From: Gemmatimonadota bacterium
GTDB lineage: Bacteria > Gemmatimonadota > Gemmatimonadetes > Gemmatimonadales > Gemmatimonadaceae
Direction: 5' to 3'
NCBI GenBank assembly: GCA_021299375.1
Contig: JAJTGR010000055.1
Location: 1-64,000, forward strand
DNA length: 64,000 nt
Positions 39,510 to 43,021 of this stretch are shown one piece after another. How positions within the stretch are numbered: the first letter of the stretch is position 1; each line of letters opens with the position of its first letter. The notes below the pieces were generated by a model that was not told where the DNA came from, did not search any database, and worked only from the letters and a program-made list of their open reading frames with translations. A program made the translations under genes and the position numbers.

Positions 39510-40838
39510 CTACTTCACGCCGAGCAGGCCAAGGACCACCAGCAGCACATATTGCGGGCCCTTGAAGCCGTCGGTGCGGTCGTCGTAGCTCTCGTCGAGT
39601 GAGTGGGCGCCGCGCCCCACGCCACCGCCATCGAGCGTCACAGCAGGCCGGCCCAGGTTCATGGGCACGTTGGCGTCGGTGCTCGAGGTGGTGAGCGGGG
39701 TGTAGATGTTCATCGTGCGGGCTGCCGCGAGCGACGTGCGCACGATGAGGGCCGTGTCCGGCGTGGCGCCGGCGGGGCGGATGCCGATCGTGTCGATCAC
39801 GACATTGAGCGCGGCATTGCTCTTCGGCCAGCGCGCCTTCTCCTCCTGGACAGCCTCCCGCAGCGCCTTCTGCAGGCGGACATCGATCTCGGCCAGCGCT
39901 GCGGCGGACTCGCTGCGCAGGTCGATTTCCATGGTCGCCTCGAAGGGGATGGAGTTGACCGAGGTGCCCCCGGACACCACGCCGACGTTGAACGTCACCT
40001 TCGGCTTGGTACTGGCTTCGAGGTCGGCGATCTTCGCGATGGCACGCCCCATGGCGTGCATCGGGTTGGGCATGCCGAAGGCGCCGTAGCTGTGTCCGCC
40101 GGGCCCCTTGTAGTGCACACGATAGCGGTTGCTGCCAACGCCGCCGTTGGTGATGCCGTACCCCGTGCCATCGACCGAGATGAACAGGTCGATGGAATCC
40201 TTGAGCGGACCGCTGAACAGCGCGCGCGTTCCGCGCAGGTTGCCGGGGCCTTCCTCGCCGACGTTGCCCACCACCAGCAGCCGGCCGGCAAACGGCACCT
40301 TGTGCGTGATGACCTGCTTCGCGACGGCCAGGACCACGGCCAGGCCGCGGCAGTCGTCGCCGATGCCGGGGCCGATGAGCTTCGTGCCGTCCCGCTTCAC
40401 GGAAACATCGGTGCCTTCGGGAAAGACCGTGTCGAGGTGTCCGGCCAGCAGCAGCGTGGGACCAGGGCGCACCCCCTTGATCTCACCGATGACGTTGCCT
40501 TCGCCATCGAGGCGCACATGCTGCACACCGAGGGCCCTGAGCCTCTCCCGGTATGCGGCGGCGCGGGCCTGCTCCTTGAACGGCGGCGCCGGGATCTGAC
40601 AGAGCCCCACCTGCTGGTCGAGCGTCCACGCATTGTCCTGCTGCAGGGCGGCGAAGGCCGCCTTCACGGCGGGGTGTGTCGCCAGCCGGTCGACCGAGGC
40701 TTCGAGGGGGGTCGGCCTGCCGGTGGACCGGGGCGCTTGCTGGGCGCCCACACCGACAGGCAGGAAAGGGGCTGCGCACAGGGCCGCGAGTCCCGGGATC
40801 GCCATCGCGGCCCGGTGGACGAGTACTGCAGAACGCAT
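39510..40838 (-). CDS. Secreted M20-family metallopeptidase
   Basis: A 442-aa protein with a signal peptide (AAMAIPGLAALCAAPFLPVGVGAQ). M20 motifs: LLLAGHLDTVFPEG, IGPGIGDDCRGLAVVL, VVGNVGEEGPGNLRG (Glu pair), YKGPGGHSYGAFG for the dimerisation part, and the final liganding His in GRGAHSLDESYDDRTDG. It resembles PepT/CPG2-like aminotripeptidases and acylaminoacid deacylases. It starts five bases after the second Rieske gene, so it may be co-transcribed with the redox operon, though a functional link is not evident. Confidence 0.9.
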   Translation of the reverse strand: MRSAVLVHRAAMAIPGLAALCAAPFLPVGVGAQQAPRSTGRPTPLEASVDRLATHPAVKAAFAALQQDNAWTLDQQVGLCQIPAPPFKEQARAAAYRERLRALGVQHVRLDGEGNVIGEIKGVRPGPTLLLAGHLDTVFPEGTDVSVKRDGTKLIGPGIGDDCRGLAVVLAVAKQVITHKVPFAGRLLVVGNVGEEGPGNLRGTRALFSGPLKDSIDLFISVDGTGYGITNGGVGSNRYRVHYKGPGGHSYGAFGMPNPMHAMGRAIAKIADLEASTKPKVTFNVGVVSGGTSVNSIPFEATMEIDLRSESAAALAEIDVRLQKALREAVQEEKARWPKSNAALNVVIDTIGIRPAGATPDTALIVRTSLAAARTMNIYTPLTTSSTDANVPMNLGRPAVTLDGGGVGRGAHSLDESYDDRTDGFKGPQYVLLVVLGLLGVK

Positions 40839-40843
40839 GGCGG

Positions 40844-41284
40844 TCAGGTGGAGATCGTGATGGTGCCGGCAGACGCGTTTGAACTCACCGTGAGTTCGAA
40901 CAGCCTCGAGGTGCGCTCACCGCCGGTCCAGGCACCCGTGCCGTTGAACGTTGCACCATGATTGGGACAACGGAAGCCCGAGCCGCTAATCGCGATGACG
41001 GTACCCTGGTGCGGACAGATCATCGAGAAGGCGCGATACGAACTCTCGGTGGCCCGCACCAGGGCGACGGGAGCCGAGATGCCTTGCACCCGGGCAATGC
41101 CGCCCACGACAGCAAGGGCCAGATAGTCCCCCGGGCGCACCGTGACGTTCACCTGACCGAGGCCGGTCGGTTCGCTGCTGTCCGACCCGCAGGCGGCGAG
41201 GAACGAGGAGACGGCCGCCAGGGAGCCGAGGGCCAGGAACTGGCGGCGGGTGCAGTCGAGACAGCCAGAAGGTGTCGAGGTCAT
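40844..41284 (-). CDS. Rieske [2Fe-2S] protein, Tat-exported lipoprotein
   Basis: A 146-aa protein. TRRQFLALGSLAAVSSFLAACGS combines a twin-arginine signal with a lipobox (LAAC), so it should be a folded, membrane-anchored lipoprotein. The cluster-binding motifs are MICPHQGT and FRCPNHGA, each providing one Cys and one His. The fold fits a small stand-alone Rieske domain. Its ATG overlaps the stop of the first Rieske gene (ATGA), so the two are co-translated. It should pass electrons outside the inner membrane; its partners are probably the two membrane proteins upstream. Confidence 0.9.
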   Translation of the reverse strand: MTSTPSGCLDCTRRQFLALGSLAAVSSFLAACGSDSSEPTGLGQVNVTVRPGDYLALAVVGGIARVQGISAPVALVRATESSYRAFSMICPHQGTVIAISGSGFRCPNHGATFNGTGAWTGGERTSRLFELTVSSNASAGTITIST

Positions 41285-41784
41285 GTGAGGGTAACCTTGG
41301 CGGCAGCCCACCCCGCCGGATCGGTGTCACTTTCGAAGGCCACGGCCGGATCGACCACCAGCACGTCGCCTTCACGTACGATCTGCAGCCGGTCCATGTT
41401 GCGCGTGGCCCGCCCACTCACGAAGGTCCCGTTGGGCTGGTACTTGGACTTATGGCGCGGACACTGGAAGCCGGCGTTCTTCGGCATCACCCGCAGGGCC
41501 GTGTTCTGATGCGGACAGGAGAGGGCGAAGGCGAACACGCTGCCGGCCGCCCGGCACAGGATCACTTCGTTCCTGCTGTCGATCGAGACGCCATCGGCGG
41601 CGGGCAGCGGATAGCGAATGGTCCGCCCACCGGCGGGTGATTCCAGCGCCGCCAGCAGCTGGGCCGGCGCTGCCACGGAGAGGCCGGCGATGGCGGACGC
41701 GGCGACCACCGCCTGACGCAGGAAGTCGCGACGGGCAGAGCACCCCGTGCAGGCGGGCTCGCGGTCGGGGGTCATGGATGTCAT
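41281..41784 (-). CDS. Rieske [2Fe-2S] protein, Tat-exported
   Basis: A 167-aa protein. The Tat signal is SARRDFLRQAVVAASAIAGLS; there is no lipobox, but a Cys pair (CTGC) precedes the RR. Cluster motifs are LSCPHQNT and FQCPRHKSKY. The AGWAAAKVTLT end and overall length fit a periplasmic Rieske ferredoxin-like protein. It begins 28 bases after the second membrane-protein gene and overlaps the next Rieske gene. An ATG at 41775 is the alternative start. It differs enough from its neighbour that the two are not a recent duplication. Confidence 0.9.
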   Translation of the reverse strand: MTSMTPDREPACTGCSARRDFLRQAVVAASAIAGLSVAAPAQLLAALESPAGGRTIRYPLPAADGVSIDSRNEVILCRAAGSVFAFALSCPHQNTALRVMPKNAGFQCPRHKSKYQPNGTFVSGRATRNMDRLQIVREGDVLVVDPAVAFESDTDPAGWAAAKVTLT

Positions 41785-41812
41785 GGGAAACCCTGGAGTG
41801 GCAGGAGAAGCA

Positions 41813-42346
41813 TCAGCTGTTCGCGACCAGCACACCGAGCAGCATGATCACGAACCACCCGGCCAGACTGCCCCACGCCCCTCGACGCAGGGTGTTCCAC
41901 GCCGTCGTCATGGCCGGTGTGACGGCTGGTGGCCGTTCGGGTGTGTCGGTGACGGGCTGTACCATGGCGAGGACACGGGACTCGGTACGGCGCATCACGC
42001 TGCCATTGGCCAGCAGGCCAGCGAACGCCGCCATCTTCACCCAGAACACCGGTTGCGTACTGAAGGTCCCGAGATCGGCTGCCGCCAACGCCAGTCCGCT
42101 GACGACGATGACCGCCAGCGAGCCGATCACGACCCCATGAGCGCCGCGCAGTTGGTCGGCCGTCGCGAGCAGGGCCTGCGGATCGGCGATCGTGGTGCGC
42201 AGCACTTGCCGATCGGTGCCAATGGCAATCCCGCCGCCGCCCAGGATCGCGAGCAGATGCATGGCGATCGTCGCGGTCGGCAGCACACCGCTGGCGGCGT
42301 AGTAGTCGGCCCACGGTTGCAGCAGGGTGGTGAGAGTGTCGAGCAT
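41813..42346 (-). CDS. Small four-helix membrane protein with two membrane histidines
   Basis: A 177-aa protein with four hydrophobic helices (about residues 22-42, 70-90, 99-117 and 157-175). Helix 1 carries H30 (IAMHLLAILGG) and helix 2 begins at H70 (RGAHGVVIGSLAV). No family is recognised. Two membrane His could ligate a heme b, though no classical cytochrome motif is seen. It sits between the four-His membrane protein, six bases upstream, and the Rieske genes, so a shared electron-transfer complex is the simplest reading. Alternatively it is a plain structural subunit. Confidence 0.72.
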   Translation of the reverse strand: MLDTLTTLLQPWADYYAASGVLPTATIAMHLLAILGGGGIAIGTDRQVLRTTIADPQALLATADQLRGAHGVVIGSLAVIVVSGLALAAADLGTFSTQPVFWVKMAAFAGLLANGSVMRRTESRVLAMVQPVTDTPERPPAVTPAMTTAWNTLRRGAWGSLAGWFVIMLLGVLVANS

Positions 42347-42352
42347 GGGCGC

Positions 42353-43021
42353 TCAGTTGCCGATGAGCATGATGAGCCAGCTTGCTGTCGACACGCCCAT
42401 CGAGGCCAGCGCGAGATTGCGGTGATCACGGCGCTTGGCCGCCGACTCTTCGGCCTCGTCTGCAAGCCTCGTGCCGGCGTAGGCGAAGCCACCGCTCGCG
42501 GCCGTGAACAGGACGCTGTGGATGATGCGGCGCGTCCGCCCGCTGGGATCCTTGCGGCCCTCCCACAGGTTCCAGCCGCCGGTGAAGGCATTGGCCCCGA
42601 AGAGGACGGCGGCCCCGGTGGCGGCTACAGGATGCACCGATTTGGCCCACTGCGGCGCTGCGTCGTTCTTCGAGAGCAACTGGTCGCCGGACACGTACGA
42701 CGCCGCGAAGAGCGGCAGCATGGCCCAGCTGAGCGCCTTGTGCAGCGCGAGCCGCTTGTAGTACCCGTCGCTGTACTCGACGGCCTTGGCGCGCCGGCGG
42801 GCCACGGTATCCTGCGGCGTCGAGTCGGGCCTGACCAGGCGCATCAGGGCCACTGGACGGACGGTGGGGCCTGCATCCGGCGGTGCCATGCGCCCACTGT
42901 CACCGACCACGGCGATCGGCGCCGTGTCCGGACGCAACGGTGGCGTTGCCGTCGGCGACGCGGCGACGAGGGACTGCCAGCTGATCAACACACTGGCCGC
43001 AGCGGCGGACAGCATCGACAT
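42353..43021 (-). CDS. Cytochrome b561-like membrane protein (four paired histidines)
   Basis: A 222-aa protein from an ATG with GGAG six bases before it. A signal-like N-terminus (SMLSAAAASVLISW) and a Pro-rich stretch precede four helices. Each helix begins near a His: H94 (LALHKALSWAML), H130 (SVHPVAATGAAVL), H168 (IIHSVLFTAAS) and H200 (RRDHRNLALASM). Because helices alternate direction, H94 and H168 lie on one face and H130 and H200 on the other, as in diheme b561 proteins. It heads the operon with a second membrane protein, two Rieske proteins and a peptidase. The heme assignment is inferred from spacing alone. Confidence 0.68.
   Translation of the reverse strand: MSMLSAAAASVLISWQSLVAASPTATPPLRPDTAPIAVVGDSGRMAPPDAGPTVRPVALMRLVRPDSTPQDTVARRRAKAVEYSDGYYKRLALHKALSWAMLPLFAASYVSGDQLLSKNDAAPQWAKSVHPVAATGAAVLFGANAFTGGWNLWEGRKDPSGRTRRIIHSVLFTAASGGFAYAGTRLADEAEESAAKRRDHRNLALASMGVSTASWLIMLIGN

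Follow-up and report, generated by a model that had tools for sequence, protein, structure and literature searches.

A recurrent gene set in Gemmatimonadota pairs a b561-like protein and a second membrane protein with two exported Rieske proteins in a candidate electron-transfer module

A set of four genes, here called A, B, C and D, was analysed in a 64,000-nucleotide stretch of DNA from a Gemmatimonadota bacterium (assembly GCA_021299375.1, contig JAJTGR010000055.1, positions 1 to 64,000), referred to below as the window. The set encodes two four-helix membrane proteins (A and B) and two Rieske proteins (C and D) with twin-arginine translocation (Tat) signals, and the linkage of A, B and C is kept across several orders and two phyla, more than a chance neighbourhood would explain. 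Each part resembles known electron carriers, and their combination, together with the helix order of A, matches no known complex. We give an even chance to the reading in which A to D form a membrane-to-periplasm electron-transfer module, the heme content, direction, donor, acceptor and complex of which we infer. The four genes, and a fifth gene E that follows them, lie on the minus strand at 39510-43021, as follows.

Gene A, 42353..43021, minus strand: 222 amino acids, ATG at 43021; signal-like N-terminus, linker and four-helix core with H94, H130, H168 and H200.
H94 codon of A, 42740..42742, minus strand: proposed heme ligand paired with H168, from sequence and conservation.
H130 codon of A, 42632..42634, minus strand: proposed heme ligand paired with H200, from sequence and conservation.
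H168 codon of A, 42518..42520, minus strand: proposed heme ligand, from sequence and conservation.
H200 codon of A, 42422..42424, minus strand: proposed heme ligand, from sequence and conservation.
Gene B, 41813..42346, minus strand: four-helix membrane protein with invariant H30, H70 and K104; remote relative of DUF6644, DUF2214, CopD and HemJ.
Gene C, 41281..41784, minus strand: Tat-exported Rieske protein with a CPRHKSKY box (Ser115/Tyr117), predicted to be of high potential.
Gene D, 40844..41284, minus strand: Tat-exported Rieske lipoprotein with a CPNHGATF box (Ala111/Phe113), predicted to be of lower potential.
Gene E, 39510..40838, minus strand: M20 peptidase with a signal peptide, 5 bp after D; not a core member.

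The genes look like one operon because they are separated by 6 bp (A/B), 28 bp (B/C) and 5 bp (D/E), and the C stop overlaps the D start (ATGA). An outer-membrane-assembly-like gene starts 68 bp upstream of A in the opposite direction. A preliminary description of the window had reported four tightly packed genes, including two co-translated Tat-exported Rieske proteins, one of them a lipoprotein; all four genes are present at this spacing, the residue numbers it gave for the histidines of A and B are exact, and its account of the Rieske pair is borne out by the ATGA overlap, the twin-arginine signals of both proteins and the lipobox of D (FLAAC).

In the AlphaFold2 model of A, a signal-like helix and a disordered linker precede a confident four-helix core (residues 87-121, 124-155, 162-190 and 194-221). 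The four histidines, which are the sole histidines of the window's A protein, fall one per helix in the order 1 to 4, each close to the helix start, which places H94 and H168 near one face and H130 and H200 near the other. Among 49 A sequences, H94 is kept in 48 (one gap), H130 in 47 (two gaps) and H168 and H200 in 46 each, most of the exceptions being alignment gaps. In cytochrome b, a single pair of helices holds both hemes; the histidine pairing of A is of the b561 type and not of the cytochrome b type, in line with the diheme-b561 geometry proposed in the preliminary description. A is thereby predicted to bind two hemes b, and the presence of heme in A is regarded as very probable. A conserved polar stretch (N144, T147, W150, N151, E154, R156, R162 and R165), formed by the end of helix 2 and the next loop, lies at the H94/H168 face and could serve for docking or as a substrate site.

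The relation of A to cytochrome b561 was approached through profile searches. In its natural order, the A profile gave a single match at E<=10 among all PDB sequences: diheme cytochrome b561 4o6y, at E=2.7. The alignment was split in two, with H168 and H200 falling on H51 and H84, and H94 and H130 on H118 and H157, the four residues that we take to be the heme ligands of 4o6y. This two-piece match suggested a swapped hairpin order in A, and an alignment was built with the helices in the order 3-4-1-2, with 2-3-4-1 as a control (three orders were tried in all). With the swapped profile, 4o6y was the best PDB match (E=0.0024), in a single unbroken alignment that covered 126 of 142 positions and all four histidines. 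The designed diheme bundle 4D2 ranked next (0.0033 and 0.008); the control order gave E=0.25. In Pfam, the commonest weak match of A in its natural order is DUF4079 (PF13301), found in 21 of 23 members (best 8e-5) and partial in the window protein. After the swap, DUF4079 was matched in 12 of 12 members (best 2e-6), over nearly the whole length of the window protein, and Cytochrom_B561 in four members (best 5e-4), compared with 10 and 1 members, respectively, for the control order.

Structure searches of the A and B models with Foldseek and VIA-align returned mainly designed and generic helical bundles, and the matches of A to 4o6y_B (Z 10.1, root-mean-square deviation (rmsd) 3.5, 132 residues), 4D2 (Z 12.4, rmsd 2.1, 103 residues) and cytochrome b6 (Z 11.9, rmsd 3.2, 126 residues) stood no higher than the rest. 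Profile-profile comparison of A and B with the Gemmatimonadota b561 (PF01292), DUF2231 and HemJ sets gave nothing significant. Because the E-values are modest, several orders were tried and a twofold pseudo-symmetric four-helix bundle can match in either register, A is described here as a possible circularly permuted, or hairpin-swapped, b561; the placement of its four histidines as heme ligands is firmer than this permutation.

Protein B was modelled by AlphaFold2 as four helices (residues 22-50, 56-90, 99-134 and 144-176) with a short additional N-terminal helix, in agreement with the earlier assignment of a four-helix protein with H30 and H70. Both histidines, as well as K104, D45, D91, N114, W12 and W164, are present in 40 of 40 B sequences; loss of the histidines among homologues had been named in the preliminary description as a finding that would count against its proposal, and they are near-invariant in both the A and the B family. 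Members of the B family weakly match DUF6644 (best 3.6e-7), DUF2214, CopD and UPF0093/HemJ, and H30 and K104 align with the conserved histidine and lysine of HemJ in a low-scoring profile alignment that is not significant. Synechocystis HemJ is described as a b-type heme protein in the title of a study cited in PMC11662147. The genome from which the window derives contains a separate HemJ. B is probably also a heme protein, by a small balance of likelihood and less surely than A.

Proteins C and D score 30.7 and 37.4 bits against the Pfam Rieske model (PF00355), both above its cut-off of 20.3, carry all four ligands of the Cys2His2 cluster, and have respiratory Rieske proteins and arsenite oxidase small subunits among their relatives. 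The bc-type disulfide cysteines are absent in the window's C (CPHQNT/CPRH) and D (CPHQGT/CPNH). C-type sequences have Ser115 in 50 of 54 and Tyr117 in 43 of 54 cases, while D-type sequences have Ala111 (28/30) and Phe113 (27/30) and no Ser/Tyr pair. In the yeast Rieske protein, the potential falls by 130 mV when the matching Ser is lost and by 65 mV when the Tyr is lost, and the two effects are roughly additive, although the rule relating these residues to potential is not strict (PMC12954380). With Ser/Tyr in C and Ala/Phe in D, the predicted potentials differ, such that the cluster of C should be high-potential and that of D lower-potential.

Several further features of the Rieske proteins were observed. 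A cysteine pair (C-x2-5-C) lies just before the Tat twin arginines in both C (CTGCSA ahead of RRDFLR, 41740-41751) and D (CLDCT ahead of RRQFLA, 41252-41263); 40 of 55 C-type sequences have it, as do 25 of the 30 D-type ones. It also occurs in other Rieske lipoproteins of the same genome (L111 and L109) and not in the bc Rieske protein, and was counted in 29 of 34 Rieske proteins versus 0 of 12 other Tat-like proteins. One of these lipoproteins (L111, C1:157396-158559) is a 526-amino-acid frame containing two Rieske domains and a Tat lipoprotein signal, the first domain having a D-like box (CPNHGARF). C-type paralogs were also found adjoining DUF2231 membrane proteins in place of A and B (L120 and L125), and, without A or B, recurrently next to genes for an arginase-like protein and for a protein with matches to ArgZ-like domains (L119, L121, L122 and L123).

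The conservation of the gene set was surveyed at several levels. B was found in 39 of 61 genomes (the window's own genome and 60 relatives) and had no match in plasmid records, and within the genus Gemmatimonas the order A-B-C-D-E is kept almost everywhere. Across 200 evenly sampled Gemmatimonadota genomes, A is present in 59, C in 66 and both in 57 (hypergeometric 1e-37, a figure that ignores the relatedness of genomes), and A lies within 4 kb of 52 of the 73 C genes. Among 20 A loci, mostly from different genera, A adjoins a Rieske gene in 18, with the gene orders A-B-C(-D), B-A-C-D, A-D, A-C-D and A-B-D. The distribution of A-B-C in Acidobacteriota is patchy: A is present in 7 of 297 genomes (one a fragment), and B and C often adjoin it. 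Two loci (L126 and L128) have B without A, and C still adjoins B. Flanking genes farther out vary between loci. The preliminary description had called for such a survey of gene order, and had held that Rieske genes lying usually apart from the membrane genes would tell against it; the linkage seen here is the opposite outcome. Its coupling of the M20 peptidase to the set was not upheld, as E follows D only in the genus Gemmatimonas, and E was dropped as a core member. No description of the A-B-C-D set was found in the literature searched, which was limited to openly licensed papers, consistent with the earlier suggestion of an undescribed system. Some Gemmatimonadota genomes (G056 and G197; locus L080) carry two or three A genes, and in L080 multiple A genes lie close together with a single set of B, C and D.

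Elsewhere in the same genome, on contig C36, a Rieske gene is directly followed by a gene for a cytochrome b whose fused C-terminal extension contains two CxxCH heme motifs (L099:7724-9494). This contig holds the only PF00033 match of the genome, with none in the operon, and further Rieske genes lie elsewhere in the genome. The earlier statement that cytochrome c1 and canonical cytochrome b are missing thus holds for the operon and fails for the genome, and the idea that the module substitutes for a missing bc complex was rejected. Because a canonical bc complex is encoded elsewhere, the module is an addition to it and not a replacement. In three Acidobacteriota loci (L055:2172-2726, L057:7326-7958 and L133:7073-7498), the gene immediately upstream of A codes for a small lipoprotein-like protein carrying a single CxxCH motif. 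These loci yielded no D gene, and a monoheme cytochrome c lipoprotein may fill the lipoprotein-carrier role of D in some Acidobacteriota. At L133:7793-11516, genes for a five-CxxCH cytochrome and for an iron-sulfur/molybdopterin-type subunit are divergent from A-C, and resemble parts of alternative complex III.

In the proposed mechanism, electrons from the membrane, most simply from menaquinol or otherwise from another membrane donor, would enter A, a diheme b-type cytochrome with one heme held by H94/H168 near one face and the other by H130/H200 near the opposite face. B would assist or add a third heme. The high-potential periplasmic Rieske protein C would exchange electrons with the hemes of A, and the lower-potential lipoprotein D with C or with the next periplasmic partner; from D, or from a small cytochrome c, electrons would pass to a periplasmic acceptor, the module working beside the canonical bc complex. 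A quinol is the suggested donor, and A, B, C and D may assemble into a stable four-protein complex. A bolder version, in which the set is a new quinol:Rieske oxidoreductase with a hairpin-swapped diheme b561 replacing cytochrome b and with the high- and low-potential Rieske proteins on separate steps or paths, is considered distinctly unlikely.

Several points weigh against an electron-transfer module of this kind. The heme and activity of the module are themselves predictions. The window's A protein scores below every Pfam cut-off, including those of the b561 models PF03188 and PF01292, its matches being weak, and its b561 match is modest and was obtained over three helix orders. B likewise falls below every Pfam cut-off (DUF6644, 23.4 bits against 27; DUF2214, 21.7 against 34.1). 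The topology signals of A conflict, as its signal-like N-termini put the H94/H168 face outside, while a positive loop, by the positive-inside rule, puts the same face inside. A search beside A for a recurring donor or acceptor gene yielded across genera none other than A, B, C and D themselves, plus the cytochrome c lipoprotein of the three Acidobacteriota loci, and 21 of the 73 C-type Rieske genes lack an A gene within 4 kb. The last point, together with the C-type genes beside DUF2231 or arginine-metabolism genes described above, is what would be expected if the genes were neighbours without joint function, the Rieske proteins serving other partners and A and B being heme-free membrane proteins; near-invariant histidines at b561-like positions and the strong linkage of A to C, which spans several orders and two phyla, make this very improbable.

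The remaining alternatives concern the task of the module. Electrons might flow in reverse, from periplasmic dehydrogenases through the Rieske proteins and the hemes of A to the quinone pool: the sequence is compatible with either direction, and a pyrroloquinoline quinone (PQQ)-dependent dehydrogenase gene lies directly upstream of A in L054. That gene is confined to this single locus, dehydrogenases are not recurrent neighbours of the module, and the high-potential C would be a poor donor to quinone, and reverse flow is therefore judged unlikely. The module might instead provide membrane electrons to a periplasmic reductase for repair or detoxification, as MsrQ does with MsrP; the Rieske proteins would then be soluble carriers, and the M20 peptidase might share a stress role in Gemmatimonas. 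Such a task would suit a small heme membrane protein accompanied by exported redox proteins, without an energy-conserving enzyme and extra to the canonical bc complex; as no reductase gene recurs beside the set, this is rated quite improbable. Slightly less credible again is a role of B, and perhaps A, in handling heme or copper in the manner of HemJ or CopD relatives, with the Rieske proteins serving that process. The weak matches of B to CopD and UPF0093/HemJ, the low-scoring placement of H30 and K104 on the HemJ His and Lys, and a DUF305 gene nearby in L131 point that way. Against it, a separate HemJ is encoded in the genome, copper genes are not recurrent neighbours of the set, and the four b561-like histidines of A suit electron transfer better.

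Cytochrome b and arsenite oxidase are known partners of respiratory Rieske proteins. A b561-like four-helix protein that recurs together with Rieske proteins would add another route coupling membrane hemes to a Rieske cluster, and would suggest a testable function for the uncharacterised DUF4079- and DUF6644-like membrane proteins. The module would provide Gemmatimonadota, which are common in soil and lakes, with a respiratory branch beside the bc complex, and the hairpin-swapped b561, if true, would clearly exemplify permutation within a symmetric heme bundle.

Compared with known systems, the A-B-C set resembles the loci in which a small DUF2231 membrane protein adjoins the same C-type Rieske protein (L120 and L125); unlike A, DUF2231 has a consensus with two conserved histidine positions rather than four, and shows no significant profile relation to A. 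B has remote profile matches to HemJ (UPF0093), CopD, DUF6644 and DUF2214, H30 and K104 coinciding with the HemJ His and Lys in the low-scoring alignment, and differs from them in its extra invariant H70, sub-cut-off Pfam scores and Rieske neighbours. A is like cytochrome b561 (eukaryotic type, PF03188; 4o6y) in its four-helix core and its four conserved histidines, paired between alternate helices at opposite faces, and unlike it in its apparently swapped hairpins, scores below the Pfam cut-offs, signal-like N-terminus and Rieske neighbours; DUF4079 is an uncharacterised relative on the cytochrome b561 side. In MsrPQ, a membrane heme protein feeds a periplasmic reductase, and the module may share its logic of quinol to membrane heme to exported redox protein, with Rieske proteins instead of a molybdenum enzyme and no MsrP-like gene. 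Unlike the bc1 and b6f complexes, the operon has no cytochrome b or c1, the histidine pairing is b561-like, and both Rieske proteins are without the disulfide cysteines; like these complexes, it links a predicted membrane b-type heme protein to an exported Rieske protein.

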